Under the pieces are notes generated by a model. The model searched no databases, had not been told where the DNA came from, and saw only the letters and a program-made list of their open reading frames with translations. DNA of 64,000 nucleotides, taken from NCBI RefSeq assembly GCF_030813595.1, contig NZ_JAUSUH010000003.1:434001-498000 (forward strand), written 5' to 3'. Source of the stretch: Ancylobacter vacuolatus. Lineage in GTDB: Bacteria; Pseudomonadota; Alphaproteobacteria; Rhizobiales; Xanthobacteraceae. A program made the position numbers and the translations under genes. Shown piece by piece: positions 23,374-58,810 of the stretch (position 1 is the first letter of the stretch; each line of letters begins with the position of its first letter).

Positions 23374-24837
23374 CTAGTTGGTGCCAGTGACTTTGCCCAC
23401 CACCTTGTCCGACAGCCCGGCCGCCTTGCGGACGAAATCGAGCGGGCCGGAGAAGTCGAAGGCGTTGTAGACGGCGTTCAGATGATTGAAGTGCGGCGCC
23501 TGCGCGAACTGCACGAAGGTGAGCCGGTGGCCGGCATAGTCGGAGTTCAGGAGGTCGCGGGCGAAGGCCAGCAGCTTGCGGCGGTCTTCCGATTCCCACT
23601 GCTTGTTCAGCGTGTAGAACTTCTTCAGCCAGTCGCCCGAGCCGGCATTGTGGAAGGCGGCGGCGTTCGGGGTGACGCAGATCTGCCCGCCGCACAATTC
23701 GCGGGCAATGTGCATCATCGCCGGCAGGTTGGCGCAGCCATGCACGCGGCCGGCATAGAGCATCGACTGGTTGGGCATCAGCAGCCCGCCCGGGCTCTTC
23801 TCCGCCAGCGCGATCGAGGCGGTGAGATGGGCGTTGATGCCCTCGCGATAGACCACCAGATCGGCCAGCTTCTCCCGCACCGACTGCAGCTTGTCGAGGC
23901 CGGTCTGCTTGGCGTTCCACATCGCCGCTCCGATCATCATGTCGGCGACATAGAGCAGGCGGTGGACGTAAGGAAACGCCGAGTAACGGTGCAGCGTGGC
24001 GCGGATGTACTGCGCCGCCTTGGTGTGGCGGTAGAAGAACACGTTCTCCCACGGGATCAGCACATTGTCGAAGATGACGAGGGATTCGACCTCGTCGAAC
24101 TTGTTGGCCAGCGGGTAGTCCTGCGGGTCGGTGCGGCCGGCGAAGGAGGAGCGGCAGATCTGCTTCACCCCCGGCGCGCTCATCGAGATGATGCCACCCA
24201 CGGCATAGTCGGACAGCGTCTCATTGGTCCAGGCGCCGACGGTGGGCTTGAGGAAGGCCTGGTCGGCATAGGCGGCGGCGGTCTCGTACTTCGCGCCGCG
24301 AATGACGATGCCGGCATCGGTCTCCTTGACCACGTGCACCATCATGTCGGGGTCCTGCTCCTGCGGCGGCAGGGAGCGGTCGCCCTTGGGATCGGTGTTG
24401 GCCGAGATGTGGAAGATGTCGTTGTCGAAGATGTTCTGCACATGCTTGTCGACATTGTCGGCAAAGCGCGGGTCATATTCGGCCAGCACGTCGCGCCCGT
24501 CGATCAGCGACCAGACTTCGCCGATGGTCTCGTCGCCGACGCGGGTGACGACGCCGCCAATGTCCTTCATGACGAGATCGACGGCCTCGACCTTGTCGTT
24601 CCAGTCCTTGGTCTCGCGCGGCGGCTTGTAGAAGATGGTGTTGCGCTTGTTCTCTTCGACATAGGTGAGGCGGTCCTGATAGGTCGCCTCATGCGCCATG
24701 TCGTACATGCGCGCGCGCACGTCGACGATCGGCTTGAAGGCGGGGTGGGTGGTGACATCCTTCACCCGCTCGCCGTCCATCCAGACTTCGCGACCGTCCT
24801 GAAGCCCCTGCCGATAGTCCTGCCCTGTGCGGATCAT
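23374..24837 (-). CDS. HpaB-family FADH2-dependent monooxygenase, oxygenase component
   Basis: 487 residues, normal for 4-hydroxyphenylacetate 3-monooxygenase large components. N-terminal helices start MIRTGQDYRQGLQDGREVWMD; later NTDPKGDRS and the middle IPWENVFFYRH are typical, as is LCGGQICVTPNAAAF near the C-terminal helix bundle. It hydroxylates a phenol or N-heteroaromatic ring with reduced flavin from the next gene. The neighbours (Rid, DUF1028, AroQ-like, GST, GlcG-like) are not those of the 4-hydroxyphenylacetate meta pathway, so the substrate is probably different. It is the first gene of the minus-strand arm. A palindrome ending in AGGAAA lies 11 bases before its ATG and overlaps the ribosome-binding region. 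Confidence 0.9.
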   Translation of the reverse strand: MIRTGQDYRQGLQDGREVWMDGERVKDVTTHPAFKPIVDVRARMYDMAHEATYQDRLTYVEENKRNTIFYKPPRETKDWNDKVEAVDLVMKDIGGVVTRVGDETIGEVWSLIDGRDVLAEYDPRFADNVDKHVQNIFDNDIFHISANTDPKGDRSLPPQEQDPDMMVHVVKETDAGIVIRGAKYETAAAYADQAFLKPTVGAWTNETLSDYAVGGIISMSAPGVKQICRSSFAGRTDPQDYPLANKFDEVESLVIFDNVLIPWENVFFYRHTKAAQYIRATLHRYSAFPYVHRLLYVADMMIGAAMWNAKQTGLDKLQSVREKLADLVVYREGINAHLTASIALAEKSPGGLLMPNQSMLYAGRVHGCANLPAMMHIARELCGGQICVTPNAAAFHNAGSGDWLKKFYTLNKQWESEDRRKLLAFARDLLNSDYAGHRLTFVQFAQAPHFNHLNAVYNAFDFSGPLDFVRKAAGLSDKVVGKVTGTN

Positions 24838-32160: not shown

Positions 32161-32850
32161 ATGAAATATGTTCTGCCCGGCCTGCTCTGCTTCAATGCCG
32201 GCTTTGTCGACACGGCCGGCTTCGTGACGCTGCACGGCCTGTTCACCGCCCATGTCACCGGCAATCTCGTCACCTTCGCCGCCGCCATCGCCGAGGGCCA
32301 CATGCCCTCGCTCTCCAAGATCATCGCGGTGCCGGTGTTCTGCTTCGTCGTCGTCGCCGCGCGGCTGGTCAGCCGCTGGCTGGTGACGCGCGGCTACGAC
32401 GATTTCCGCATCCTGATGGCGGCCAAGCTGATCCTGCTCGCCCATGCCGCGCTGGTGGCGATCCAGTTCGGTGCGCCGCTGGCGGCCGATACGCCCAACG
32501 CCATTATGATGGGCATGACGCTGGTGAGCGCCATGGCGCTGCAGAACGCGCTGCACCGCACCCATCTCACCGACGCGCCACCCTCCACCGTGATGACGGG
32601 CACCATCACCCAGCTGCTGCTCGACCTCACCCATGTGTGGAAGCCGCATCCCGGCGCGGAGCCGGGACAGGTGCGCGAGCGGCTGCGGCGCTTCGGCGTG
32701 TTCCTCGCCAGCTTCGCCGCCGGCTGCGCCATGGCGGCGCTGCTCTATCTGCTGGCCGGCATGTGGTGCTTCCTGCTGCCACCGCTGGTGGCGCTGATGG
32801 AGATCTATGTGCTGCCGGTGACGCCGGAGCCGGCCAAGGGCAAGGGTTAA
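32161..32850 (+). CDS. YoaK/DUF1275 family membrane protein
   Basis: 229 residues from MKYVLPGLLCFNAGFVDTAG; an alternative in-frame ATG at 32122 would add 13 basic residues and cannot be excluded. GFVTLHGLFTAHVTGNLVTFA is the hallmark of the DUF1275 family, and about six hydrophobic stretches follow. Function in bacteria is unknown. Its TAA overlaps the stop of the convergent PstS-ArsR-ArsC frame (32847-32850). Confidence 0.88.
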   Translation: MKYVLPGLLCFNAGFVDTAGFVTLHGLFTAHVTGNLVTFAAAIAEGHMPSLSKIIAVPVFCFVVVAARLVSRWLVTRGYDDFRILMAAKLILLAHAALVAIQFGAPLAADTPNAIMMGMTLVSAMALQNALHRTHLTDAPPSTVMTGTITQLLLDLTHVWKPHPGAEPGQVRERLRRFGVFLASFAAGCAMAALLYLLAGMWCFLLPPLVALMEIYVLPVTPEPAKGKG

Positions 32851-34805
32851 GCGGCGGCGCGGGCGGCGAGCGTCATCTCGGTGGCGCCGTCCATGATGGC
32901 GATGGCGCCGAGCCGGGCCTTGAGGCTGGCAAGGTCGAGCGATTCCAGCGGCAGGTTGACGAAGGCGGACATGCGCGCGGCGATCTGCCGGTAGCTGCGG
33001 ACAAACGCCGCCCGCAGCTCCGCCTCGGTGCCGGCGCCGGCGGCGGGATCGGCAAGACCCCAATGCGCGCTCAGCGGGTGGCCGGGGAAAACCGGGCAGC
33101 TCTCGCCGGCGGCGGCATCGCAGACGGTGATGACGAAATCCATCGGCTCGGCGGCGCGGCCGGCGAACTCGTCCCAGCTCTTGGAGCGCAGATCGTCGGT
33201 GGTGTAGCCGAGGTTGCGCAGCAGTTCGAGCGCCAGCTTGTGCGGCGCGCCGCGCGGCACGCTGCCGGCGGAGAAAGCGTGGAAACGCCCGCCGCCCTCG
33301 CGGTTCAGCACCGCCTCGGCCATGATCGAGCGGGCGGAATTATGCGAGCAGACGAGCAGCACATTATAGCGGCGCTCCGCCGCCTCGCCCGGCCGCAGGC
33401 GCGGAAAGGCGGCGCCGGCATCGGCCAGCGCCGGCAGTTCGCCCAGCAGCAGTTCCATCACCTCTGCCGCCTTCCCCGCCGTGGCGGTGTAGATGATCGA
33501 GCGGCCCTCGCGGCGCGAGGCGACCAGGCCCGCCCGTTCCAGATGCGCCAGATGGGTCGACATGGTGTTGTGCGGCACCGCCAGCAGCCGGGCGACATCG
33601 CCGGCGTTCAGCCCGAAGGGGGCGTAGCGCAGCAGCAGGCGGAAGGCATCGAAGCGGGTCGGCTGGGCGAGGGCATCGAACATCGCCACCGCGTCATCCG
33701 ACAGAAGACGCCGCACACCGCCAGCCTGCCCGAGAATCGCCTGCCCGAGATTCGCCTGACCCTGCATCGCCGCCCTCCTGTTCGCCGCTCCGCTTCCGCT
33801 CTTGAACGTCGCCGCCCAATAGGTCCGCACCTGCTGCACCAGCGGCGCCGGCAGCGGGACATAGCCGAGCTGTGAGGCATAGTCGCTGCCCTCGCCGAGC
33901 GCAAAGTCGAAGAAGTCCAGCGCCGTCCGGTTGGCCGCGCCATCCGCCGGCGCCTTGTACAGCAGGACAAAGGTGGTGGCGGCGATCGGGTAGGCCTCGG
34001 GAACGGCGGAATCATTGATGGTGGCGTAGAAATCGCGGGTCTGCGCCCAGTCCACCCCCAGCGCCGCCGCCTGGAACGAGGCCGCGCTCGGGGCGATGAA
34101 GCGGCCGGCGCGGTTCTGCACCAGGCCATAGGTGAGGCCGGCCTGCGTCACATAGGTGAACTCGACATAGCCGATGGCGTTGGGCGTGCGCTTCACCTCC
34201 AGCGCGACGCCCTCATTGCCGCGTGCGCCGCTGCCGACCGGCCAGGCGACGGAACTGCCCTCGCCCAGTTCGCGCTTCCAGTCCGCGCTGGCCTTGGCGA
34301 GATAGGACACCCAGTTGAAGGTGGTGCCCGAGCCGTCCGAGCGGTGGATGACGGCGATCAGCGTGTCCGGCAGGTCGAGGTCCGGGTTCAGCGCCTTCAG
34401 CGCGGGATCGGACCAGCGGGTGATCTTGCCCATATAGATGTCCGCCAGCACCGCGCCGGTGAAGCGCATCGTGCCCGGCGCCACGCCGGCGAGGTTCACC
34501 ACCGGAACGACGCCGCCGAACACGATGGGAAACTGGCCGAGGCCGAGGCGATCGAGATCCTCGGGCTTCAGCGGCTTGTCGGAGGCACCGAAATCCACCG
34601 TTTTCGCGCGGATGCGGTTCACGCCGGCGGAAGAGCCGACCGACTGGTAGGCCACGTCGGTGCCGGTGGCGGCGCGGAAGGCCTCCGACCATTTCCAGAT
34701 GATCGGGTAGGCGAAGGTGGAGCCGGCGCCGGTGAGGTCGTCGGCGCGGGCGCCCGGCGCCAGGACCAGCAGGACGGCGGCGATCAGGAGAAGCGAGCGG
34801 CGCAT
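32847..34805 (-). CDS. PstS phosphate/arsenate-binding protein joined in frame to ArsR and LMW-PTP arsenate reductase
   Basis: One frame of 652 codons holds three modules. Residues 1-335 are a PstS-type periplasmic binding protein with a signal peptide (MRRSLLLIAAVLLVLAPGAR) and motifs GAGSTFAYPI, IHRSDGSGTTFNWVSYL and SGARGNEGVA. Residues 370-455 are an ArsR winged helix (PHNTMSTHLAHLERAGLV). Residues 478-625 are a low-molecular-weight phosphatase-type arsenate reductase with CSHNSAR (C486, R492). A periplasmic module joined to cytoplasmic ones makes no topological sense. An internal ATG at 33767 with AGGAGG six bases upstream could start the ArsR-ArsC part alone, so the usual pstS stop seems to have been lost. 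There are no pstCAB genes nearby. Confidence 0.85.
   Translation of the reverse strand: MRRSLLLIAAVLLVLAPGARADDLTGAGSTFAYPIIWKWSEAFRAATGTDVAYQSVGSSAGVNRIRAKTVDFGASDKPLKPEDLDRLGLGQFPIVFGGVVPVVNLAGVAPGTMRFTGAVLADIYMGKITRWSDPALKALNPDLDLPDTLIAVIHRSDGSGTTFNWVSYLAKASADWKRELGEGSSVAWPVGSGARGNEGVALEVKRTPNAIGYVEFTYVTQAGLTYGLVQNRAGRFIAPSAASFQAAALGVDWAQTRDFYATINDSAVPEAYPIAATTFVLLYKAPADGAANRTALDFFDFALGEGSDYASQLGYVPLPAPLVQQVRTYWAATFKSGSGAANRRAAMQGQANLGQAILGQAGGVRRLLSDDAVAMFDALAQPTRFDAFRLLLRYAPFGLNAGDVARLLAVPHNTMSTHLAHLERAGLVASRREGRSIIYTATAGKAAEVMELLLGELPALADAGAAFPRLRPGEAAERRYNVLLVCSHNSARSIMAEAVLNREGGGRFHAFSAGSVPRGAPHKLALELLRNLGYTTDDLRSKSWDEFAGRAAEPMDFVITVCDAAAGESCPVFPGHPLSAHWGLADPAAGAGTEAELRAAFVRSYRQIAARMSAFVNLPLESLDLASLKARLGAIAIMDGATEMTLAARAAA
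33774..33779 (-). promoter_or_regulatory. Shine-Dalgarno AGGAGG inside the PstS-ArsR-ArsC frame
   Basis: On the minus strand AGGAGG is followed after six bases by ATG (33767-33765) in frame with the ArsR-ArsC modules. This site would give a separate 306-residue ArsR-ArsC protein (32847-33767). Just upstream the codons read AGC GGA AGC GGA (33800-33789); a TGA to GGA change at either would explain loss of the pstS stop. Confidence 0.6.
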
Positions 34806-34822
34806 GGGATCACCTTTGTATC

Positions 34823-34848
34823 AATATGTCGGGACGGATCGACGTATT
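34823..34848. promoter_or_regulatory. Candidate ArsR operator in front of pstS-arsR-arsC
   Basis: AATATGTCG (34823-34831) and CGACGTATT (34840-34848) form a dyad with one mismatch around GGACGGAT, 18 bases before the ATG at 34805. The core TCGGGACGGATCGAC recurs exactly at 52877-52891 before the GAPDH-arsJ genes, and a looser copy is at 58728-58749 before the second arsR. Confidence 0.6.
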
Positions 34849-35086: not shown

Positions 35087-35205
35087 CACTACCTCAAGAT
35101 ATGAGTGAGCGCAGACTCACCGTAAGAGGAAACGCATGGAAGGCTGAGGCGGCGGCGCGGAAACGCGCGGCGGAGCGGCTTTGCGTGCCGAGCCAGGAGT
35201 GCCGC

Positions 35206-36465
35206 ATGCCCGCGCCCCACCGCATTGAAGCCGACTATCTGATCGAGACCGCCTATGATCCGCGCCGCGCCGCCGAGGCGATGGCGGGCGAGCAGTCGAG
35301 CGGCACCTTTGTCGCCATTCCCGGCGAGACGCCGGAACTGAAGGAGCGCTCCGCCGCCCGTATCGAGGCGCTGGAGCTGCTGGGAACGGTCGACGAGCCC
35401 TCCCTCCCCGGCGCCGGCCATCCCCAGGGCGGGGTAATCCAGCGCGCCCGCGTCACCCTTTCCTGGCCGCTGGACAATCTCGGCCCCTCACTGCCCAATC
35501 TGCTCGCGACCGTCGCCGGCAATCTGTTCGAGCTGAAGCAGTTCTCCGGCCTGCGCCTTCTCGACATCCGCCTGCCGCAGGCGTTCGCGCAGGCCTATGG
35601 CGGGCCGAAATTCGGCATTGAAGGCACCCGCCGCCTCGCCGGCATCGAGGGCCGTCCGATCATCGGCACCATCGTCAAGCCCAGCGTCGGCTTCGGGCCG
35701 ACTGAGACGGCGGAGCTGGTGAAGCTGCTCGCCGAAGCGGGGATCGACTTCATCAAGGATGACGAGCTGCAGTCCGACGGGCCGCAATGCCCGTTCGAGG
35801 ACCGCGCCCGCGCGGTGATGCGCGTCATCAACGACCATGCCGACCGCACCGGCAAGAAGGTGATGTTCGCCTTCAACATCACCGGCGAAATCGACCAGAT
35901 GCGCCGCCGCCACGATCTCGTGCAGGAGCTGGGCGGCACCTGCGTCATGGCCAGCCTCAACTCGGTCGGCCTTGTCGGCATGATCGAGCTGGGCCGCTTC
36001 ACGCAGCTGCCGCTGCACGCCCACCGCAATGGCTGGGGCTATCTCTCGCGCGCGCCGATGCTCGGCTGGTCCTATGTCGCCTGGCAGAAGATCTGGCGGC
36101 TGGCCGGTGCCGACCACATGCATGTCAACGGCCTCTCCAACAAGTTCTCCGAGGCCGATGACAGCGTGATCGCCTCCGCCCGCGAATGCCTCACGCCGCT
36201 GTTCGACGACAAGCCCTGCATCGCCATGCCGGTGTTCTCCTCCGGCCAGTCGGCCAAGCAGGCGCCCGGCACCTATGCCGCGCTCGGCACGGCGGACCTG
36301 ATCTTCGCCGCCGGCGGCGGCATCATGGCCCACCCGGACGGCCCGGCCGCCGGTGTCGCCTCGCTGCGGCAGGCCTGGGAAGCGGCGATCACCGATGTGC
36401 CGCTGGCCGACTATGCCCGCGACCATTCCGCGCTCGCCCGCGCGCTGGAGACCTACGCGGCATGA
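35206..36465 (+). CDS. oiaX: RuBisCO-like protein, 3-oxo-isoapionate-4-phosphate transcarboxylase/hydrolase type
   Basis: 419 residues from MPAPHRIEADYLIETAYDP, with AGGAG six bases before the ATG at 35206. It has the RuBisCO large-subunit fold: GTIVKPSVGFGPTE carries the catalytic lysine (K158), and DFIKDDELQ carries the carbamylatable lysine and metal ligands (K184, D186, E187). The second lysine of the usual KPK motif is Ser160 and loop 6 is NGLSNKFSE, so it is a RuBisCO-like protein, not a CO2-fixing enzyme. With OiaK, ApnO and ApnL genes around it, the role is conversion of 3-oxo-isoapionate-4-phosphate to 3-phosphoglycerate and glycolate. It overlaps oiaK (ATGA). Confidence 0.88.
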   Translation: MPAPHRIEADYLIETAYDPRRAAEAMAGEQSSGTFVAIPGETPELKERSAARIEALELLGTVDEPSLPGAGHPQGGVIQRARVTLSWPLDNLGPSLPNLLATVAGNLFELKQFSGLRLLDIRLPQAFAQAYGGPKFGIEGTRRLAGIEGRPIIGTIVKPSVGFGPTETAELVKLLAEAGIDFIKDDELQSDGPQCPFEDRARAVMRVINDHADRTGKKVMFAFNITGEIDQMRRRHDLVQELGGTCVMASLNSVGLVGMIELGRFTQLPLHAHRNGWGYLSRAPMLGWSYVAWQKIWRLAGADHMHVNGLSNKFSEADDSVIASARECLTPLFDDKPCIAMPVFSSGQSAKQAPGTYAALGTADLIFAAGGGIMAHPDGPAAGVASLRQAWEAAITDVPLADYARDHSALARALETYAA

Positions 36466-37850
36466 GCCCCTCCCCGCGCGCTTCCGCCCCGCGGTTGCCG
36501 GGCGGCCCGCTCATTGCCTTCTATGGTGACGACTACACCGGCTCGTCGGCGGTGATGGAGGTGCTGAGCTTTGCCGGCCTGCCGACCGTGCTGTTCCTCG
36601 GCCCGCCGACATCAGCGCAGCTCGCCCGATTCAATGACATGCGCGCCATCGGCATTGCTGGCGTCGCCCGCTCGCAGCCGCCGGAATGGATGGACGCGCA
36701 GCTGCCGCCGATCTTTGAACAGCTCGCCCGGCTGAAGGCGCCGATCAACCACTACAAGGTCTGCTCCACCTTCGATTCCGCCCCGCATGTCGGCTCGATC
36801 GGCCGCGCCGCCGAAATCGGCGAGCGCCTTCTTGGCGGGGCCTGGCATCCGCTTATTGTCGGCGCGCCGGCCATTGCCCGCTACCAGGCCTTCGGCAACC
36901 TGTTCGCCTGTATTGACGGCACCGGCTACCGGCTCGACCGCCACCCGGTCATGGCGCGCCATCCGGTGACGCCGATGAACGAGGCGGATGTGCGCCTGCA
37001 CCTGTCGCGGCAGACCGACATGCCGGTCGGGCTTGTCGATTTCGTCGCCATGAAGACCGGCCGGGCCGAGCAGCAGCTCGCGGCCGAGCGGGCGGCGGGC
37101 GCCCGCCTCCTGGCGCTCGACGTGCTCGACGACGAGACGCTGGCCGAAGCCGGACGGCTGGTGTGGGAACATCGCGGCGCGCGGCTGTTCGCCCTCGGCT
37201 CGCAGGGGCTGGAATATGCGCTGGTCGCCTATTGGCGCCGCGCCGGCCTGCTGGCGGCGGAAGTGCCGACGCCGGCCCCCGCCCGCACGGAACGTATCGC
37301 CGTGGTCTCCGGCTCCTGCTCGCCGATCACGGCGGCGCAGATCCGCCACGCGCTGGACCATGGCTTTGGCGGCGTCCGCCTCGACGCCACCCGCGCGGTG
37401 GAGGCGGGCGCGTGGGCGGCCGAGGTCACGCGCGGGGCGGCGGCGGCGCTCAACGTGCTGGAGGCCGGGCAGGACCCGCTGGTGTTCACCGCCAGCGGCC
37501 CGGACGACCCGGCCGTGCCGGCGCTGGGGCAGGCGATCGACGCGGCGGGCGTCGCGCCGTCGCTCGTCAATGCGCGCATCGGCGACGGGCTGGGGCGCGT
37601 GCTTGACGAGGTGGTGCGCCGGGCGGGGCTGACGCGCGCCATCATTTCCGGCGGCGACACGTCAGGCCATGCCGGCATGGCGCTGGGCATCTATGCGGTG
37701 ACCGCGCTGGCGCCGCTGGCGCCCGGCTCGCCGCTCTGCCGCGCTTATGCCGAAGGCGCCCATGACGGGCTCGAAATCGCGTTCAAGGGCGGCCAGATGG
37801 GCCGGCCGGACTTCTTCAGCGCCGCGAAGGGCGGCGCCACCAACCACTGA
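36462..37850 (+). CDS. oiaK: Four-carbon acid sugar kinase family, 3-oxo-isoapionate kinase
   Basis: 462 residues from the ATG that overlaps the oiaX stop. N-terminal LIAFYGDDYTGSSAVMEVL is the DUF1537 sugar-binding motif. C-terminal ISGGDTSGHAGMALGIYAV is its nucleotide-binding motif. The family phosphorylates acid sugars such as erythronate and 3-oxo-isoapionate. Coupling to an OiaX-type RuBisCO-like protein fits 3-oxo-isoapionate kinase, which makes the OiaX substrate. Family is certain, substrate is from gene context. Confidence 0.87.
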   Translation: MSPSPRASAPRLPGGPLIAFYGDDYTGSSAVMEVLSFAGLPTVLFLGPPTSAQLARFNDMRAIGIAGVARSQPPEWMDAQLPPIFEQLARLKAPINHYKVCSTFDSAPHVGSIGRAAEIGERLLGGAWHPLIVGAPAIARYQAFGNLFACIDGTGYRLDRHPVMARHPVTPMNEADVRLHLSRQTDMPVGLVDFVAMKTGRAEQQLAAERAAGARLLALDVLDDETLAEAGRLVWEHRGARLFALGSQGLEYALVAYWRRAGLLAAEVPTPAPARTERIAVVSGSCSPITAAQIRHALDHGFGGVRLDATRAVEAGAWAAEVTRGAAAALNVLEAGQDPLVFTASGPDDPAVPALGQAIDAAGVAPSLVNARIGDGLGRVLDEVVRRAGLTRAIISGGDTSGHAGMALGIYAVTALAPLAPGSPLCRAYAEGAHDGLEIAFKGGQMGRPDFFSAAKGGATNH

Positions 37851-38805: not shown

Positions 38806-39783
38806 ATGAACCGGATCATCGCCCTCGCGGCCGCCGCCGCGCTCAGCCTCGCCGCCGTGCCCTTCGCCACGCCGGCGCTCGCCACCACCATCATCAAGGC
38901 CGGCCACGGCACGCAGACCGCGCACCCCACCCATATCGCCCTGCAGAAATTCGCTGAAATCGTCGCCGAGAAGAGCAAGGGCGACCTGAAGATCGAGATC
39001 TATCCCGACCGGCAGCTCGGCGAAGAGCGCGAGATGGTCGAGGGCCTGCAGCTGGGCACGGTCGACATGGCGGTGGTCTCCACCGGCCCGCTCGTCGCCT
39101 TCGTGCCCGCGCTCGGCACGGTGGACCTGCCCTTCCTGTTCAAGAGCTCGGAGCATGCCTACAAGGTGCTGGACGGCGAGGTCGGGCAGGACCTGCTCGC
39201 CAAGTTCCAGGACCGCGGCATTGTCGGCCTCGCCTGGTGGGAGAATGGCTGGCGCAGCCTGACCAGCAAGAAGGAGGTCAAGTCGCCGGCCGACCTCAAG
39301 GGCATGAAGCTGCGCACCATGCAGAACCCGGTGCACATCGCCGCCTTCAAGGAGCTGGGCGCCTCGCCGATACCCATGGTGTGGGGCGAAGTGTTCACCA
39401 GCCTCAGCCAGGGGGTGATCGACGCGCAGGAGAACCCGGTCACCATCGTCTACAGCAACTCGCTGTGGGAGGTGCAGAAGTACATGACGCTGACGCGCCA
39501 CGTCTATGGCCCGCACCTCGTGCTGTTCAGCCAGCAGGTGTGGGACCGCCTGACCCCGGCGCAGCAGACCATCCTGAAGGAAGCCCTGATCGAGGCGACG
39601 ACCTTCCAGCGCCAGACTTCGGCCCGGCTGGAAACCGAGCAGCTGAAGCTGCTGGCCGACAAGGGCATGATCGTCGAGCAGGTCGACATCACCCCGTTCC
39701 AGGAAGCCACGGCCAACACCGCCTCGGCGTTCAAGAACATCGATCCCGCTGTCGTGGCCAAGATCAAGGCCGCCGCGAACTGA
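38806..39783 (+). CDS. TRAP transporter substrate-binding protein (DctP family)
   Basis: 325 residues with a signal peptide (MNRIIALAAAAALSLAAVPF, cleavage near ATPALA at about residue 26). The DctP fold is shown by IKAGHGTQTAHPTHIALQKF, DRQLGEEREMVEGLQLGTVD and LKLRTMQNPVHIAAFKELGA-type segments, the last holding the carboxylate-binding arginine. It captures an acid sugar in the periplasm for the DctQM permease. D-apionate or a related aldonate is the obvious candidate from context. It is flanked by hairpins on both sides. Confidence 0.92.
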   Translation: MNRIIALAAAAALSLAAVPFATPALATTIIKAGHGTQTAHPTHIALQKFAEIVAEKSKGDLKIEIYPDRQLGEEREMVEGLQLGTVDMAVVSTGPLVAFVPALGTVDLPFLFKSSEHAYKVLDGEVGQDLLAKFQDRGIVGLAWWENGWRSLTSKKEVKSPADLKGMKLRTMQNPVHIAAFKELGASPIPMVWGEVFTSLSQGVIDAQENPVTIVYSNSLWEVQKYMTLTRHVYGPHLVLFSQQVWDRLTPAQQTILKEALIEATTFQRQTSARLETEQLKLLADKGMIVEQVDITPFQEATANTASAFKNIDPAVVAKIKAAAN

Positions 39784-39796
39784 GCCGCGCGCGCCG

Positions 39797-40006
39797 GCCG
39801 CAGCCCTCACGGCTGCGGCCGGTTCGTAAGCCAGGATTGCCGCAGCCCTCACGGCTGCGGCCGGTTCGTAAGCCAGGATTGCCGCAGCCCTCACGGCTGC
39901 GGCCGGTTCACAAGCCAGGATTGCCGCAGCCCTGACGGCTGCGGCCGGTTCGCAAGCCAAAATTGCCGCAGCCCTCACAGCTGCGGCCGGTTCGTCAGCC
40001 AAAATT
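39797..40006 (+). repeat. Five tandem 42-base units, each with a 9-base-stem hairpin
   Basis: Units start at 39797, 39839, 39881, 39923 and 39965. Each begins with the stem GCCGCAGCC, loop CTCAC (CTGAC in unit 4), stem GGCTGCGGC, followed by a 19-base linker CGGTTCGTAAGCCAGGATT with small changes. Unit 5 has a weakened stem and linkers 4 and 5 read AAAATT. The block fills the 308-base gap between dctP and dctQ. The period is a multiple of three and open on both strands, but the repeats look structural rather than coding. Confidence 0.93.
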
Positions 40007-40091
40007 GCCGCTCCCTCGCGGGGGGGCGGCCCGTGTGCAAGCCAACGCAGCCGCAGCCCGGAGGCCCCCGCCTCCACGGGAGAGGTGTGAC

Positions 40092-50412: not shown

Positions 50413-51687
50413 TCACCGGACGGGACGAACGGTCGATGTCGGCGCGTCCGCCTGGGTCGGCAGCGCCAGCGTCACCAGCCAGCAGACGAACAACATCACC
50501 GCCGAGCCGAGGAGGCAGGCGGTGATACCGCCGAGCTGGTAGAGGAAGCCGGAGGCGAGAATGCCGAGGAAGCGCCCGGCGGCGTTGGCAGCATAGTAGA
50601 AGCCGACATCCTCCGCCGCCTTCTCCGAGCCCGCATAGGCGAGCACGAGATAGGAATGCACCGAGGAATTCACCGCAAAGGCGACGCCGAACACGGCAAG
50701 ACCGACGACCAGCACCAGTGTCGGGTCGGGTGGGGTGAGCGCCAGCGCGGCGGCGATCAGCACCGGCACGAGGGCGAGCCCCAGCGACCACATACGCGCC
50801 GCCGGCACCTCGCGCGACAGGCCATCGCGGCTGCGCGCCACCAGCGAGGGTGCCGCCGCCTGCACCAGTCCATAGCCGATGGTCCACAGCGCCAGAAACG
50901 CGCCGACCATGGTGAAGGTCCAGCCATTGGCATAGAGAAACACCGGCACGCCGACCACGAACCACACGTCGCGCGCGCCGAACAGAGCAACGCGTGCGGC
51001 CGCCAGCAGGTTGATGCCCTTCGACTTGGCGAAGAGTTCGCGGGCGCTGGCGCTGGCCTTGGCCTTGCCCATCATGGCGGGGAGCGAGAACACCACGCCG
51101 AGCATGACGAGGAACAGCGCCCCCGCCATCAGCCACAGCCCGTAGCGGAAGCCGACCAGCTGCAGCAGCAGGCCGCCGAGGAAGAAGCCGACACCCTTCA
51201 TCGCGTTCTTCGAGCCGGTGAACCAGGCCACCCATTTGAACAGCCGGCCCTCCGCCTGCCCGCCCGCCTGCGACTCGGTGATCTTGATCGCCGATTTCGA
51301 GGCGGTCTTGGTCAGGTCCTTGGCGACGCCGCACACGCCCTGCGCCAGCAGCACCCAGGTGACCAGCAGCGTGCTGCCCCATTCCGGCGACACCGCCGAC
51401 AGCAGCAGGAAGCCGGCGATCTGCGTCACCAGCCCCACCGTGAGCATGCGGGTGATGCCGTAGCGCGCCGCCAGCCAGCCACCGATGAAATTGGCGCCGA
51501 TGCCCGCCGCCTCATAGAGCAGGAACAGGAAGGCGAGCGTGAAGGGCGAATAGCCGAGCTGGAAGAAGGTGAACAGCACCAGCATGCGCAGGGCGCCATC
51601 GGTGAGGGTGAAGCCCCAATAGGCCGCCGTCACGATGGCGTAGTTGCGCAGCCCGCTGCCGGAGGAACCCACTGAGGAAACGGTCAT
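50413..51687 (-). CDS. arsJ: Major facilitator ArsJ, 1-arseno-3-phosphoglycerate efflux
   Basis: 424 residues with about twelve hydrophobic segments. RNYAIVTAAYWGFTLTDGAL and VAKDLTKTASKSAIK are typical of ArsJ, which exports the unstable arseno-phosphoglycerate made by the partner GAPDH and so removes arsenate. It follows the GAPDH gene by two bases. The pair is the known arsJ-gapdh module. It is the last gene of the minus-strand ars group. Confidence 0.92.
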   Translation of the reverse strand: MTVSSVGSSGSGLRNYAIVTAAYWGFTLTDGALRMLVLFTFFQLGYSPFTLAFLFLLYEAAGIGANFIGGWLAARYGITRMLTVGLVTQIAGFLLLSAVSPEWGSTLLVTWVLLAQGVCGVAKDLTKTASKSAIKITESQAGGQAEGRLFKWVAWFTGSKNAMKGVGFFLGGLLLQLVGFRYGLWLMAGALFLVMLGVVFSLPAMMGKAKASASARELFAKSKGINLLAAARVALFGARDVWFVVGVPVFLYANGWTFTMVGAFLALWTIGYGLVQAAAPSLVARSRDGLSREVPAARMWSLGLALVPVLIAAALALTPPDPTLVLVVGLAVFGVAFAVNSSVHSYLVLAYAGSEKAAEDVGFYYAANAAGRFLGILASGFLYQLGGITACLLGSAVMLFVCWLVTLALPTQADAPTSTVRPVR

Positions 51688-51689
51688 CG

Positions 51690-52733
51690 TCAGATCCCGA
51701 CCTCGCGCATGTGGCAGGCGAGATCGACCATGCGGCAGGCATAGCCCATCTCATTGTCGTACCAGGCATAGACCTTGAGCAGCGTCTCATCGGTGACCAT
51801 GGTCGACAGCCCGTCGACGATGGAGGAACGGGTGTCGCGGGCATAGTCGACTGACACCAGCGCGCGCGGCTCATAGCCGAGAATGCCGTTGAGCGGGCCC
51901 TGCGCGGCGGCGCGGAACAGCTCGTTCACTTCCTCGACGCTGGTCGGGCGCTGCATCTCGAACACCGCATCGGTGAGCGAGGCGTTGAGAACAGGCGCGC
52001 GCACCGCATGACCGTTCAGCTTGCCCTTCAGCTCCGGGTAGATCAGCGCGATGGCGGTGGCGCTGCCGGTCGTGGTCGGCTGCAGCGACAGCAGGGCGGA
52101 ACGGGCGCGGCGCAGATCCTTGTGCGGGGCGTCGACCACCATATTGGTGTTGGTCGGGTTGTGGATGGTGGTGATCTGGCCGTGGCGGATGCCGATCGCC
52201 TCATGCACCACCTTCACGACAGGGGCGAGGCAGTTGGTGGTGCAGGACGCCGCCGTGACGATGGGGTGCCTCGCCGGCTCATAAAGCTGCTCGTTGACGC
52301 CGACGACGACATTGAGCACCGAGGGGTCCTTAACAGGCGCGGCGACGATGACGCGCCTGGCGCCCCGGTCCAGATGCCCCTGCAGCGCGGCCGGGGTGAG
52401 GAACTTGCCGGTGCATTCCAGCACCACATCGACGCCGAGATCGCCCCACGGGATATCGGCCGGCGCGGCTTGGGCGGAGAAGGAAAGGCGGGTGCCTTCA
52501 ATGGTGATGGCCTCCTCGCCCGACGCCTCGATCTGTGCCCGCCAGCGGCCCTGCACACTGTCGAATTCGATGAGATGCGCGGTGGCCGCTGCGCCGCCCT
52601 TGATCTCGTTGAGATGAACGATGTCGAGCCGGTTGCCGGCGCGCGGATCGCTTGCCTGCCGCTCGGCGGCCCCCATCGCCGCCCGCAGCGCCAGCCGCCC
52701 GATCCGCCCCATGCCGTTGATGCCGACTCTCAT
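51690..52733 (-). CDS. ArsJ-associated glyceraldehyde-3-phosphate dehydrogenase
   Basis: 347 residues. [18 protein letters not shown] is the NAD-binding start, [19 protein letters not shown] contains the catalytic cysteine, and the His partner and phosphate-binding residues follow ([20 protein letters not shown] differs from the housekeeping form). In this context it uses arsenate in place of phosphate to form 1-arseno-3-phosphoglycerate for ArsJ. It has its own upstream operator (52872-52895), 175 bases from arsH, so it may be separately induced. Confidence 0.92.
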
Positions 52734-52871
52734 GCCCGGTTTCCTCTCGGCTGGCTGACGCGCGCGATCTCTCGCGGCTCGCTGCGCCGTAGCAGCCCGG
52801 GATGACAGTTCCGTGACAGTGTCAGCGCCTCTGGAGCGCGAAATGGCGGATAAGCGCTGTTTCTATCGGCT

Positions 52872-52895
52872 TTATTTCGGGACGGATCGACATAA
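52872..52895. promoter_or_regulatory. Candidate ArsR operator in front of GAPDH-arsJ
   Basis: TTATTTCG (52872-52879) and CGACATAA (52888-52895) form a dyad with one mismatch around GGACGGAT. The centre TCGGGACGGATCGAC is identical to the site before pstS-arsR-arsC. It lies in the 175-base gap between arsH and GAPDH, about 140 bases before the GAPDH start. Confidence 0.6.
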
Positions 52896-52908
52896 TCAGC
52901 CGCCGTTG

Positions 52909-53661
52909 TCACCGCGACGGGGCCGTCCCGGTCATGGCGATGGTGGAAAGATCCGCCTCCGCCGCCACCGCCGCCTTGAGCGCGGCCTCGCGGCGCTCGC
53001 TGTAGCGGCTGGTGAAATAGTCCCGGCGGTCGCGGGTGAGCAGAGTGAACTTCATCAGTTCCTCCATCACGTCGACCACCCGGTCATAATAGGGCGACGG
53101 CTTCATCCGCCCGGCCTCATCGAATTCCTCGAACGCCTTGGCGACCGAAGACTGGTTGGGGATGGTGATCATCCGCATCCAGCGGCCGAGCACGCGCAGC
53201 GTGTTCACCGCGTTGAAGGATTGCGAGCCGCCCGACACCTGCATCACCGCCAGCGTGCGCCCCTGCGTCGGGCGGATGCCGCGATATTCCAGCGGCAGCC
53301 AGTCGATCTGGCACTTGAACACGCCTGTGAGGGTGCCGTGCCGCTCCGGGCTGCACCAGACCTGGCCTTCCGACCATTCCGACAGGCTGCGCAGCTCCTG
53401 CACCTTGGGATGCTCCGCCGGCACGCTGTCCGGCAGCGGCAGGCCGTGCGGATCGAAGATGCGCGTTTCCGCCCCCATGGCGGTGAGCAGGCGCGCGGCC
53501 TCCTCGACCAGTAGCCGGCTATAGGACCGCTCCCGCAGCGAACCATACAGCAGCAGGATGCGCGGGGGATGCGTCAGCGGGCTAGCGGGCGCCAGCTTGT
53601 CCGCGTCCGGCCGGTCGAAATGGGCGGGGTCGAGCGCGTCGGTGAAATCGTCTGTGGTCAT
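52909..53661 (-). CDS. arsH: ArsH, NADPH-dependent FMN reductase / organoarsenical oxidase
   Basis: 250 residues, the usual ArsH length. [20 protein letters not shown] is the flavodoxin-like FMN phosphate loop (GSLRxRSYSR), and [20 protein letters not shown] with [17 protein letters not shown] are ArsH signatures. It oxidises trivalent methylarsenicals with oxygen and NADPH. Its ATG overlaps the stop of the MFS gene. Confidence 0.94.
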
Positions 53662-54917
53662 CGGGCAGCCTCGGATGATGCGCGGCGCGACAGGAAGGCG
53701 GCCAGCCAGAAGCCGACGGCGAGCAGCAGGGTCAGGACGATGATGGCAAGGAGCACGCCGTCATAGGAGCCGGACATCGACCAGATCAGCGCCGCCGCCA
53801 GCGGGGCCACCGCGCGCGAGATCGTGCTCGGCGCCGACATCGCGCCGTTCACCGCGCCATAGGCCTCGCGGGTGAGCATTTCCGGCACGGAGAGCCCGCG
53901 CACGATGGTGGTGATGCCGTTGGCCGCGCCATAGAACAAAGCGACGAGCGCGATCAGCAGGAAGCTCGGCGGCAGCACATCGAGCGCCACCAGCGCCAGC
54001 GGGAACACCGCCACAGTGACCGAGCCGATCAGCCGCACCGGCGCGCGCGGCGCGAACACCCAGATGGCAACGCGCCCCGCCACCTGCGCCGGGCCGATCA
54101 GCGTCATCGCCGCGACCACGGCGGAGACCTCGAACCCCTTCTCCACCAACATCGGGTAGAGATGGAAGGTGAAGGCCGAGAAGGCGGCGGAATAGGCAGT
54201 GAAGGCCACCGCCAGCGCCCAGAACACCGGCTGGCGCGCCGCCCAGGCCACCGCCGCCCGGCCGCTGAGCGGGGCCGGCGAGGAAGAGGAGCGGTGCGTC
54301 GGCGCGTCGGCGGCGGGGTCGATCACCGACCAGTAGCAGCCGGCGCAGACGAGGATGTTGATCGCCGCCAGCACCATGAGCGCCTCGCGCCAGCCCACCG
54401 TATCGAGCAGCAGCTGCACCAGCGGGATGAACACGGTGGAGGCAAAGCCGCCCCACAGGGTCAGCGCCGTGATCCCCGCCCGCGCATGCGAGGGGCCGGA
54501 GCGGCGGGCGATGACGGCGAAGGCGGGATCGTACAGCGTCGCCGCCTGCAGCGCGCCGATGCCGGCCACCGCGACATAGAACAGAACGAGGCTCTCAACC
54601 TGCGACCACAGCACCAGCAGCAGCCCGGCCAGAACCGAGCCTGTGGTCATGATCAGCCGGCCATGGCCCCGGTCGATGGCGGCGCCGATGGGGTAGGCCG
54701 CAAGCCCCGCGAAGGCGAGCCCCAGCGTCGCCGCGCCATAGAGCGCGCTTTTCGACCAGCCGAGCTCATGGCCCATCGCCTCGGCGATCAGCGGGAAACT
54801 GTAATAGAGCGAGCCCCAGGAGCAGACCTGCCCGATGCCGAGCCCGGTGACGAACAGGCTGCGGGCGCCGGGCGGGCGATGCTCGCCGGCACCGGCGACA
54901 AGAACATTCTCGCTCAC
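53658..54917 (-). CDS. MFS transporter of the ars operon
   Basis: 419 residues from a GTG that overlaps the arsO stop (GTGA); an in-frame ATG further upstream lies inside arsO. About twelve hydrophobic segments are seen, with [20 protein letters not shown] and [14 protein letters not shown] between helices 2 and 3. It resembles the monocarboxylate-porter branch of MFS. Position between arsO and arsH suggests export of an arsenical, possibly an ArsK-like role, but no specific subgroup was recognised. Confidence 0.85.
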
Positions 54918-56260
54918 GCCGGCACTCCACAGCAGGCCGTGGAGGCGGCGGGCATCGTCGGCGTGGGAGGCGCGCAACAGGCGGCGCCGGTTTCACGCGG
55001 GGCGGTGCTACACACGCCGGTCTCGGGCAGCACCAGCTGCACGTCACGCGCCGCCGCGTGATCGCCGGCGATCGCGGCGATGACGGAGCGGACCTGTTCG
55101 TAACCCGTCATCATCAGAAAGGTCGGCGCCCGTCCGTAGGATTTCGAGCCGACAATGTAGAAGCCGGGTTCCGGATGCGCCAGCTCCGTCGCGCCATGTG
55201 GCGGCACGGTCCCGCAGGAATGCAGATTGGGGTCGATCAGCGGCGCGAGCGCCAGCGGGGCCTCGACGACCGGATCGAGTGCGGCCCGCACTTCACGGCA
55301 CAGCGACAGGTCGGGCCGCGAGCCGGTGGCGATGATGAGGCGGTCAATGGTGAGGCTGCGCGGGTCGCCGTCCACCCGCGCTGTCAGGGCCAGCGCCTCG
55401 CCCGCCCGCTCCAGCCGCTCGGTCGTGAAGGGAGAGAGCACGGCGAGCCGGCCCGTCTCGACCGCCCGCCGCGCCGCGAGCCCAAGCGCCCCGCGCTCCG
55501 CCAGCTTGTCATCGAGACCGCCGCCCAGCGCCTTTTGCAGCCCGTTGCGGCGCAGCGCCCAGAGGATGCGGGTCTCCGGCGCCTCCTCCTGCAGGCGTAG
55601 CAGGTCGAGCACCGCATTGATGGCGGAATGCCCGCTGCCGACGACCAGCACGCGACGACCGGCATAGTCGGCGCGGGCAGACCCCAGAATGTCAGGAATG
55701 CCATAGGCGATGAGGTCCTGCGCCTCGCGCTCGCCGGGAACAGGCAGCCCATCGACGCCAAGCGGGTTCGGCTGGTGCCAGGTGCCTGATGCGTCCAGCA
55801 CGGCGCGCACCTCGGTGCGCTGCTCGGCCCCTTCCGGCCCATGCCAGATGACCTGGAACGGCGCCTTCTCCCGGCCGGCGGTGGTGAGCTTGTCGAGGCC
55901 GACGCGGGCGATGGCGCGCACCTGCGCAGCGCAGCGCAGATGCGGCGCGAGGGCGGGATGACGCGCCAACGGCTCCAGATAGTCGCGGATGATGTCGGCA
56001 CCGGTGGGCAAGGCGTCGGGATCGGGCGCCTGCCAGCCCCGCTCCAGCAGCAGCTCCCGGGCGGCGGCGTCCACATTGTATCGCCACGGCGTGAACACAC
56101 GCACATGCGCCCAGCTGCGCAGCGCGGTGGCTATGCTGGGGCCGCGCTCGAAGATCAGCGGCGTCAAGCCGCGCCGCACGGCGTGGGCGGCAGCGGCCAG
56201 CCCCACAGGGCCGGCGCCGATGATGGCGACCGGAAGGTCGGGCTTCGATGCGGGGTCCAT
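54914..56260 (-). CDS. arsO: ArsO-type flavin-dependent monooxygenase
   Basis: 448 residues. VAIIGAGPVGLAAAAHAVRR is the FAD Rossmann motif; RRVLVVGSGHSAINAVLDLL is the NADPH-binding GxGxS motif. The protein aligns in pattern with the putative flavin monooxygenases named ArsO in ars operons. The substrate is not established, possibly an organoarsenical or a thiol-linked arsenical. The C-terminus carries several cysteines (CSTAPRETGAACCAPP and CCGVP), a possible metalloid-binding tail. It lies 41 bases after arsR. Confidence 0.85.
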   Translation of the reverse strand: MDPASKPDLPVAIIGAGPVGLAAAAHAVRRGLTPLIFERGPSIATALRSWAHVRVFTPWRYNVDAAARELLLERGWQAPDPDALPTGADIIRDYLEPLARHPALAPHLRCAAQVRAIARVGLDKLTTAGREKAPFQVIWHGPEGAEQRTEVRAVLDASGTWHQPNPLGVDGLPVPGEREAQDLIAYGIPDILGSARADYAGRRVLVVGSGHSAINAVLDLLRLQEEAPETRILWALRRNGLQKALGGGLDDKLAERGALGLAARRAVETGRLAVLSPFTTERLERAGEALALTARVDGDPRSLTIDRLIIATGSRPDLSLCREVRAALDPVVEAPLALAPLIDPNLHSCGTVPPHGATELAHPEPGFYIVGSKSYGRAPTFLMMTGYEQVRSVIAAIAGDHAAARDVQLVLPETGVCSTAPRETGAACCAPPTPTMPAASTACCGVPA

Positions 56261-56301
56261 TTTCTATCCTTCCGGCATCTTGGAAATACAGGCCCAGAGA
56301 G

Positions 56302-56619
56302 TCAGCTCGCCGCGGCTTCGGAGGCGACGCAGCCGGCATCGGCGCAGCATTCGTCGGCGAGATAGCCGATCAGCGCGTCCATGGCGGGATAATGCGCGCG
56401 GCAGATCAGCGTCGTGGCGTGGCGCTCCTGCGTCACCAGCCCGGTGTCGACGAGGCGCTTCAGATGATGCGACAGCGTGGAGGCGGCGATTCCGATCCGC
56501 TCCTGCAGGCCACCGACCGGCAGGCCGGCATGACCCGCCCGCACCAGCGTCCGGTAGATCTGCAGGCGGGTCGGATTGCCCAGGGATTCAAGTTGGCGTG
56601 CGGCTTGTTCGAGATTCAT
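56302..56619 (-). CDS. arsR: ArsR-family arsenite-responsive repressor 1
   Basis: 105 residues. The winged helix spans about 10-75 (LGNPTRLQIYRTLV; STLSHHLKRLVDTGLV). Cysteines at 73, 91, 92 and 97 include a C-terminal CC pair suited to As(III) binding. First gene of the arsR-arsO-MFS-arsH group. An 18-base perfect palindrome 43 bases upstream is the likely operator. Confidence 0.92.
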   Translation of the reverse strand: MNLEQAARQLESLGNPTRLQIYRTLVRAGHAGLPVGGLQERIGIAASTLSHHLKRLVDTGLVTQERHATTLICRAHYPAMDALIGYLADECCADAGCVASEAAAS

Positions 56620-56661
56620 GGAAATAAGCTAGGCGCCGTCGCCATCGCCGGTCAAGCTCTG

Positions 56662-56679
56662 TTTCGACAATTGTCGAAA
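56662..56679. promoter_or_regulatory. Perfect 18-base palindrome TTTCGACAATTGTCGAAA
   Basis: The palindrome lies in the 76-base gap between the first arsR and the end of acr3, 43 bases upstream of the arsR start. It is a strong candidate operator for ArsR 1. It differs from the TATNTCG-N8-CGACRYR sites associated with the other ArsR modules. Confidence 0.7.
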
Positions 56680-56695
56680 TATCAGCCGGCGCCCC

Positions 56696-57775
56696 TCAGG
56701 CGTCGGGCGCTGTCCGTGGAAACCACCTTCTGCCGAGCCGCAGCGCGACATGCACGAGGAGGATCAGCACCGGCACCTCGACCAGCGGCCCGATGACGGC
56801 GGCAAACGCCACGGGCGAGGCAAGGCCGAAGGCGGCGATGGCGACCGCGATCGCCAGCTCGAAATTATTGCCGGCGGCGGTGAAGGCGATGGCCGTGGTG
56901 CGCGGATAATCCGCCTCGATCAGTCGGCCCATCGCGAAGCTGATGAGGAACTGGACGATGAAGTAGATGGTCAGCGGGATGGCGATGATCACCGCGTCCA
57001 TCGGCAGGCGCACCAGATCGCCGCCCTTCAGGCTGAACATGGCGACGATGGTGAACAAGAGCGCGCCGAGCGTGATCGGGCTGATCCTGGGCAGGAACAC
57101 GTTGGCGTACCAGTCCGGCCCCTTGCGGGCGATCAGCAGCCGGCGGGTGAGGAACCCGGCCAGAAACGGAATGCCGAGATAGATCAGCACCGCCTCGGTG
57201 ATGGTCCAGAAGCTGACATCCACCACGCTGCCCTCCAGCCCGAACAAGGGCGGCAGCACGGTGAGGAACAGCCAGGCATAGGTGGAGAAGAACAGGATCT
57301 GGAAGATCGAGTTGAACGCCACCAGGCCGGCGACATATTGGTTGTCGCCCTTGGCGAGCTGGTTCCACACCAGCACCATGGCGATGCAGCGGGCGAGCCC
57401 GATGAGGATCAGCCCGGTCATGTATTCCGGGTAGTCGCGCAGGAAGATCACCGCCAGGGCGAACATCAGCGTCGGGCCGATCAGCCAGTTCTGCACCAGC
57501 GAGAGCACCAGCACCCGCTTGTCGGCAAACACAAGGTGCAACTCCTCGTAGCGCACCTTGGCCAGCGGCGGGTACATCATCAGGATCAGCCCGATCGCGA
57601 TCGGAATGTTGGTGGAGCCGACCGAGAGCGTGTTCAGCGCCTCCGGCAGGCCGGTGAACACCGTGCCGAGAGCGACGCCGAGCGCCATCGCCGCGAAGAT
57701 CCACACGGTGAGGTAGCGGTCGAGAAAGGACAGCCGCGCGGCGGGCCGGGGCGTGAGCGCCAGGGTCTGGGACAT
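56696..57775 (-). CDS. acr3: Arsenite efflux permease ACR3
   Basis: 359 residues from [20 protein letters not shown]; ten hydrophobic segments. [20 protein letters not shown] contains the essential cysteine of ACR3 (helix 4), and ACR3-type [15 protein letters not shown] is also present. It extrudes As(III). It lies downstream of arsC and arsR 2 on the same strand but separated from arsC by a 120-base RIME-like element that may end or attenuate their common transcript. Confidence 0.94.
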
Positions 57776-57796
57776 CGGGGGTTCCGGTTCGGGTTC

Positions 57797-57900
57797 AGAG
57801 CGTTTTCGAGCGAAGTGGATACCGGTTCGCGTCAAGAAAACGCGTGGATTCAATAGCCTAGAGCACTTCCCCGATACAATGAATCGGGGAAGTGCTCTAG
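57797..57900. repeat. RIME-like intergenic element, copy 2, with 18-base perfect inverted repeat
   Basis: The head from 57797 contains GCGTTTTC (57800-57807) pairing with GAAAACGC (57836-57843) and CGAGCGAAGTGGATACCGG, as in copy 1. The tail CTAGAGCACTTCCCCGAT (57858-57875) pairs perfectly with 57883-57900 around a 7-base loop. The tail overlaps the arsC stop codon. Both copies share the head but differ in the tail, as in mosaic elements of the Hyphomicrobiales. Confidence 0.8.
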
Positions 57901-58334
57901 GCGGCGCGGTTGCCGTTGATGTCGATGACCAGCTGGCCGTCCTCCTTGCGAAACTCGCCGCGCTGGGGCGCGTCGAGAAGGTCGAGCACGCTCTCCGACG
58001 GCCGGCACAGCTTGACGCCGCGCGGGGTGACGACAATCGGCCGGTTGATGAGGATGGGATGGGCCATCATCGCGTCGAGCAGCGCCTCGTCACTCAGGGC
58101 AGGGTCGTCGAGGCCGAGCGCGGCATAGGGCGTGCCCTTCTCGCGCAGCACGGCGCGGACCGGAATGCCCATGCGGGCGATGAGCGAAACCAGTTCGGAG
58201 CGAGTTGGCGGTGTCTTGAGATATTCGATGATCACAGGCGTGATCCCGGCATTGCGGATCAGCCCCAGCACGTTGCGCGAGGTGCCGCAGGCGGGGTTGT
58301 GAAAGATCGTGACGTCGGCACTGTCAGGCGACAT
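57897..58334 (-). CDS. arsC: Glutaredoxin-coupled arsenate reductase
   Basis: 145 residues from [20 protein letters not shown] with AGGAGG six bases before the ATG. The active-site Cys is C16 in [30 protein letters not shown] carries the conserved arginines of the ArsC/Spx fold. It reduces arsenate with glutathione and glutaredoxin. It overlaps arsR 2 by 11 bases. This is a second reductase type beside the phosphatase-type one at 32847, so the strain has two routes for As(V). The stop codon lies within the inverted repeat of the RIME-like element. Confidence 0.93.
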
Positions 58335-58728
58335 CGCAGGCCTCCTTAGTGGAGTTTCCTTGGGCGTCATAGGCGTCGGCCGGATGCGCCCCGGCGGGGC
58401 AGCAGGGCTGAAGATCGGCGATGAGCGGGGCGCAGATCTCCGGCTTGCCGCCGCAACACTCCTTCAGGAGGAAGGAAGCCAGATGACGCACCGCCTCCAG
58501 CTGGGCGCGGTAGATGATGAGCCGGCTCTGGCGCTCCGCCGCGACCAGCCCGGCGCGGGCGAGAATGCCAAAATGGGTGGAGAGCGTGTTGTGCGGCACA
58601 TCGAGCCGGCGCGCCACCTCGCCCGCCGCCAGCCCTTCCGGCTCATGGGCGACGAGCAGCCGGAAGACATCGAGCCGGGTCGGCTGCGACAGCGCGGCGA
58701 AGGCGGAAAGAGCTTGATCCGTGTCCAT
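58324..58728 (-). CDS. arsR: ArsR-family repressor 2 with cysteine-rich tail
   Basis: 134 residues from MDTDQALSAFAALSQPTRLD; an in-frame ATG at 58758 would add ten residues. The winged helix (about 5-75) has VPHNTLSTHFGILARAGLV, nearly the same recognition helix as the ArsR module of the PstS fusion (VPHNTMSTHLAHLERAGLV). Cysteines at 91, 92, 99, 109, 110 and 131 are candidate As(III) ligands. A TATGTCG-N8-CGACACG dyad lies directly at the start codon, so the message may be leaderless or start at 58758. It precedes arsC and acr3. Confidence 0.9.
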   Translation of the reverse strand: MDTDQALSAFAALSQPTRLDVFRLLVAHEPEGLAAGEVARRLDVPHNTLSTHFGILARAGLVAAERQSRLIIYRAQLEAVRHLASFLLKECCGGKPEICAPLIADLQPCCPAGAHPADAYDAQGNSTKEACDVA

Positions 58729-58749
58729 ATGTCGACGATAACCGACACG
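58728..58749. promoter_or_regulatory. Candidate ArsR operator at the start of arsR 2
   Basis: TATGTCG (58728-58734) and CGACACG (58743-58749) are separated by eight bases, the same arm type and spacing as the sites at 34823 and 52872, though the centre differs. It touches the ATG, implying autoregulation with a very short leader. Confidence 0.5.
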
Positions 58750-58810
58750 TGGACGCAAGACAAGCGTTCTGTTCGCGCGCCTTTAAGATGTTCGACTGTC
58801 GCGTGGCGGC

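Follow-up and report, generated by a model that had tools for sequence, protein, structure and literature searches.

INTRODUCTION

Fusions of ArsR, Acr3 and AqpS with the arsenate reductase ArsC are on record (PMC6205960, PMC6514093). The locus described here resembles the ArsR-ArsC proteins of those two sources in its second half, where an ArsR-type domain is followed by an LMW-type ArsC, but differs in that this copy continues the frame of an exported PstS, and in that its ArsR part lacks the cysteine triad. With Acr3-ArsC and AqpS-ArsC (PMC6205960) it shares an ArsC placed C-terminal to another arsenic-related protein; the partner there is a membrane transporter or channel, whereas here it is an exported protein. 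PMC6683785 and PMC6333641 have arsRC... operons, not fusions, as their subject. Links between pstS and arsenic genes are also reported. PMC3834237 covers 21 arsenic islands, including those of Xanthobacter autotrophicus Py2 and Starkeya novella, and states, citing Kang et al. 2012, that pstS1 of Agrobacterium is regulated by ArsR. As in the islands of that paper, a second PstS stands here beside arsenic genes, but this pstS has no stop codon and no pstCAB was identified alongside. Halomonas GFAJ-1 carries pstBACS and gapdh-arsJ-type genes in one island (PMC5930303). No description of a PstS-ArsR-ArsC fusion was found by title or start of abstract among the openly licensed papers listed.

The E. 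coli genes cheA, clpB and infB each give a long and a short product from nested in-frame starts with an internal ribosome-binding site. The present locus would be like them, having a long and a short form in one frame, if both are made. Those are established pairs, whereas this one would have come from one mutation and would join an exported to a cytoplasmic protein. The sequence feature of such a two-product gene that is seen here is an intact AGGAGG-N6-ATG.

RESULTS AND DISCUSSION

An open frame joining PstS to ArsR-ArsC

The window, meaning the whole 64-kb stretch of DNA that was analysed, carries on its minus strand (34805 to 32847) an exported-type PstS in frame with an ArsR-ArsC protein, as judged from the open reading frame and its profile matches. 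The coordinates are collected in Table 1. The original prediction, that a PstS with a signal-peptide-like start reads into ArsR-ArsC without a stop, is borne out by the 652-residue frame and by profile matches to all of its domains. The junction reads AGC GGA AGC GGA GCG GCG AAC AGG AGG GCG GCG ATG, so that the AGGAGG and the following in-frame ATG at 33767, which had also been predicted, are both present. Folding of the junction RNA gave no signal above that of shuffled sequences.

Table 1. Features of the pstS-arsRC locus and its surroundings, in window coordinates.
Feature	Position	Strand	Basis or remark
Fused open frame, PstS - linker - ArsR - ArsC	32847..34805	-	652 codons, ATG to TAA
pstS part, 338 codons	33792..34805	-	gene end in relatives falls here
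Signal-peptide-like first 21 residues	34743..34805	-	Sec-like by eye
GGA codon, a stop in 16/16 distinct relative junctions	33789..33791	-	alignment, among the matches listed
AGGAGG, ribosome-binding site of arsRC	33774..33779	-	6 bases before ATG; identical in 501b
arsRC, 306 codons and stop, own ATG	32847..33767	-	sequence
ArsR-type helix-turn-helix, fusion residues 373-449	33459..33689	-	NF033788
LMW phosphatase/arsenate reductase domain	32961..33362	-	C-X5-R and later cysteine pair
ArsR-type palindrome AATACGTCG-N8-CGACATATT	34823..34848	.	8/9 arm pairs; -43 to -18 from pstS ATG
Main ars cluster	50413..58758	-	ArsJ, ArsJ-type GAPDH, ArsH, MFS transporter, ArsR, Acr3, Grx-type ArsC, ArsR; context only

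The PstS part matches the profile TIGR00975 over residues 24-332 with 361.5 bits (cut-off 205) and narrowly misses the PRK10918 model (336 against 339). Alignment to solved PstS chains places in it the stretches STF, SDKP and RSDGSGTTF, which we take to be the binding residues of PstS. In the second half the ArsR and ArsC domains follow one another in a single frame. The match to NF033788 (ArsR/SmtB regulators) is narrow, 55.3 bits against a cut-off of 55, and PF01451 matches fusion residues 482-615 with 51.2 bits (cut-off 23.2). The score for TIGR02691, the thioredoxin-type ArsC of the pI258 family, stays below its cut-off (52.8 against 174.3 bits). The ArsC part has three cysteines, and its alignment with solved arsenate reductases shows a pI258-type C-X5-R loop (VCSHNSAR) and two further cysteines (VCDAAAGESC). 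The fusion is not a chance juxtaposition: each half is a conserved protein of full length, and the window shows synteny with the genome of Xanthobacteraceae bacterium 501b.

Two small features were observed at the ends of arsRC. The TTAA at 32847-32850 holds the stop codons of both arsRC and a convergent DUF1275 gene, and the start of arsRC contains a 15-base tandem repeat (2.3 copies, 33724-33758) coding GQANL-like units, which is present in 501b and absent from the other relatives aligned.

The pstS stop codon in relatives

Among the matches listed, 17 distinct pstS-arsRC junctions, the window's included, were obtained from the window's genus, Xanthobacter and Aquabacter. Their sources were a search of 30 genomes of the genus, a family search, a named collection (best 80 of 123 loci) and fetched regions. 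In all 16 others a pstS stop (12 TGA, 3 TAG, 1 TAA) stands where the window has GGA (33791-33789), directly after a common F(K/R)xG(S/A/V)-type ending, and the window is the only one of the 17 without it. In the genus search pstS was immediately followed by arsRC in 8 genomes besides the window's own, again among the matches listed; in these 8, when aligned, pstS ends at codon 33791-33789 (7 TGA, 1 TAA). Named carriers of the pair, within the best 80 of 123 loci, include Xanthobacteraceae bacterium 501b, Ancylobacter polymorphus, A. dichloromethanicus and species of Xanthobacter and Aquabacter.

Both GGA codons of the junction had been proposed as one base from a TGA, with a TGA at either place to be sought in relatives. 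The second (33791-33789) is indeed the ancestral stop, as the 16 of 16 junctions among the matches listed show, but at the first (33797) the 8 genus relatives aligned have GGA or GGC. The nearest relative is 501b, with 95.6% DNA identity over the gene. It has TGA at the codon in question, and its arsRC, whose ATG lies 21 bases past that TGA, already shares the frame of pstS without any intervening stop, so that a single T-to-G change suffices for fusion. The history originally proposed, loss of the pstS stop, thus has strong support in the stop kept in every other junction among the matches listed and in this relative one substitution away and in frame. The two genes share one frame in 3 of the 16 relatives (L144, L036, L038), in one of them (L038) with extra stops between. 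As the AGCGGA-AGCGGA of the window is a perfect repeat where two aligned relatives and the remnant in genome G016 have AGCGGA-AGCTGA, copying of the neighbouring AGCGGA unit may possibly have caused the change.

A 652-residue form conserved in relatives, named in advance as the outcome that would speak against this history, was looked for and none was found among the matches listed. Nor did any other match run stop-free across the junction among those listed for 30 genus, 149 family and 397 order genomes, which are overlapping sets; since only the best 8 candidates per genome were scored in the family search and the best 3 in the order search, with thresholds of 1e-100 and 1e-110, a distant fused protein could be missed. 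ArsRC alone was searched in 385 genomes of the class at 1e-60. Some part of the gene is matched by 434 of 72,556 plasmid records, none with 80% coverage of the fused gene at a single place. With no other fused copy among the matches listed, the fusion is taken to be mainly a private loss of a stop codon.

One match in G016 (query 334-650, without a stop) was considered as a second fusion and rejected, its pstS remnant ending in TGA and its arsRC lying in another frame. At this locus (L147, about 6220-6290 and 6595-6671) a short 3' remnant of pstS ends FKSGS-stop, the rest is deleted, arsRC is kept and a tRNA-Arg gene is nearby.

Probable origin and predicted consequences of the fused frame

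The frame is fused in the window, the genes are separate in the relatives, one base lies between the two states and the start signals of arsRC are unchanged. We consider it likely, with a probability of roughly 65%, that a two-gene arsenic operon, pstS-arsRC, lost its pstS stop by one T-to-G change in this lineage only, giving a 652-residue read-through protein and probably free ArsRC as well. Ribosomes finishing pstS would run on into arsRC, which begins 21 bases further along that frame and is not preceded by a stop, and would produce a 652-residue precursor that starts with a signal peptide. Some free 306-residue ArsRC probably continues to be produced alongside it by internal initiation, since neither the AGGAGG nor the ATG at 33767 has changed. 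We infer from the sequence that the cell makes both forms, that the long one either is exported or stalls on the way out, and that internal initiation may supply enough ArsRC for function. The long form is thus predicted either to carry ArsRC to the periplasm or to jam export. Low dN/dS in both halves, amino-acid rates without significant excess on the window branch, the absence of indels and the stop in 16 of 16 relatives among the matches listed favour this explanation. A longer window branch and one high nucleotide rate comparison count against it, and a one-base error would give the same picture.

Such an error in sequencing or consensus, with the pstS stop still present and the genes separate, is one alternative: the entire case hangs on one base of a draft genome in 29 contigs, and the fused state is seen in none of the 16 relative junctions among the matches listed. 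The assembly itself, with completeness of 100% and contamination of 0.23%, argues against it. Over 61,703 aligned bases the window and 501b differ at 6.1% of sites, and 306 of the 3775 differences are G/T, so that changes of this kind are common between the two. The fused gene and its 501b counterpart differ at 92 of 1959 bases without an indel. Four of the 92 fall in the 24 bases from stop codon to ATG; since three of these lie in the spacer besides the substitution itself, the latter is not a single odd base amid an identical stretch. We also compared 40 non-overlapping ORFs of at least 100 codons and at least 93% identity with 501b. The fusion is the only long C-terminal difference among them (314 residues), and the other 39 show no comparable change: the remaining C-terminal differences are of 4 residues (23374-24837), about 30 (42826-43290, a doubtful ORF), 16 (56302-56619) and 1 (56696-58036). 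Several N-terminal differences are an artefact of choosing the first possible start. An error is on this evidence unlikely.

It also seems improbable, to much the same degree, that arsRC, or the pair of genes, was inactivated by the fusion and that the locus is being lost while a full ars cluster serves elsewhere. A complete ars cluster that includes a Grx-type ArsC does lie 16-24 kb away, an intact pstSCAB-phoU set is on another contig and pstS of G016 is already mostly deleted. Against 501b, dN/dS is 0.066 for pstS, 0.157 for arsRC, 0.24 for the ArsR part and 0.055 for the ArsC part, values that mostly reflect the time before the fusion. The ArsR-part value, which would fit decay, is raised because 14 differences are clustered in 60 bases (33426-33485), perhaps through local recombination, whereas the low ArsC-part value speaks against it. 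The fused gene has no further stop or frameshift, the start signals of arsRC are intact and the gene retained in G016 is arsRC. In relative-rate comparisons with four outgroups none of 8 at the amino-acid level exceeded a chi-square of 3.84, giving no significant excess on the window branch; at the nucleotide level one of 8 did (window arsRC with outgroup L156, 21 against 9, chi-square 4.8). In the ArsRC tree the window has the longer branch, 0.028, compared with 0.0091 for 501b. Less probable still is a selected fusion whose long form serves a separate purpose, such as that of an arsenate-binding reductase that is exported or held in the membrane. The frame is intact throughout, and arsenate reductase fusions with other arsenic proteins are reported (PMC6205960, PMC6514093), but the fused form is in none of the 16 relative junctions among the matches listed. 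An exported ArsRC would, moreover, have its DNA-binding domain and its thiol-dependent reductase on the wrong side of the membrane.

On the preferred reading of a stop loss, this is a clean gene fusion by one stop-codon change that joins proteins meant for two sides of a membrane, and it could therefore show how a cell copes with such a product, by an internal start, by export or by degradation. The private fusion is in itself modest, and the conserved pstS-arsRC pair merits more attention.

An ArsR-ArsC clade without the cysteine triad

The ArsR part of the window protein (33459-33767) contains no cysteine and thus lacks the As(III)-sensing triad. Among 35 distinct ArsR-ArsC matches the CC-x5-C triad is absent from all 19 ArsRC of the window's clade (62-100% identity); in 17 of these the ArsR part is free of cysteine, and in two (L156, L038) it has a single one. 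The triad is present in the 16 more distant matches (at most 51% identity), four of which have a stop between the ArsR and ArsC parts. In the tree a branch with 100/100 support sets the 19 proteins without the triad apart. The match between pstS linkage and triad loss is not complete, as two ArsRC that are encoded beside pstS but fall outside the clade (L044, L045) carry the triad.

A palindrome upstream of pstS

The pattern [CT]GTCG-N8-CGAC[AG] was scanned over 200 to 320 bases before the start of mature PstS, with linkage to arsRC computed from the sequence; L157, L144, L156, L045 and L044 were counted as arsRC-linked loci. It occurs before 13 of 20 arsRC-linked pstS genes and before none of 109 others, some of which may have arsRC further off, many fetched loci having a flank of only 1500 bases. 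All 10 arsRC-linked pstS genes of the window's genus, the window included, carry it, against none of 7 that share this gene order but come from Xanthobacter, Aquabacter and other genera. In the remaining three carriers (G162, G053, G114) arsRC is on the other side of pstS. The stricter AYGTCG-N8-CGACRT has four sites in the genome, three of them outside the window. With one mismatch allowed the window holds six matches where 0.72 are expected. One of these lies before gapdh-arsJ (52874-52893) and one near the 5' end of an arsR frame (58729-58748), while at least two others are inside coding frames.

These findings raise the speculative possibility, to which we give rather low odds, that the pstS-linked ArsRC clade without As(III)-binding cysteines uses its ArsC domain to sense arsenate or phosphate and controls its own operon at GTCG-N8-CGAC, the arsenic-induced PstS aiding phosphate uptake amid arsenate. 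If so, the stop loss in one genome ties that regulator to an exported PstS and is a natural experiment on the circuit. The pairing of PstS with a cysteine-less ArsR-ArsC, under an ArsR-type palindrome in the window's genus, makes two ideas testable: a dedicated phosphate-binding protein induced by arsenic, and the sensing of a signal other than As(III) by a cysteine-less ArsR domain.

Genomic surroundings

In the window pstS-arsRC stands apart, with RuBisCO-like and sugar-kinase-like genes (35101-37850) on one side and the convergent DUF1275 gene on the other. The MFS transporter of the main ars cluster scores below the ArsK cut-off. The genome also has one other LMW-phosphatase match, two PF03960 matches, of which one belongs to the ars cluster, and a phoR-like gene that accompanies the separate pstSCAB and phoU. 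One of two copies in genome G021 directly precedes an ArsR-type gene, an LMW-type arsC, a PF03960 arsC and an SBF-family transporter, and the second is followed by a phosphonate-type ABC transporter. The pair is followed by acr3 in a Xanthobacter (L064) and by an SBF transporter, GAPDH and an MFS transporter in an Aquabacter (L073). A 42-base tandem repeat (5.1 copies, 94% matches) was also observed in the window at 39797-40011, just after the ORF at 38806-39783.
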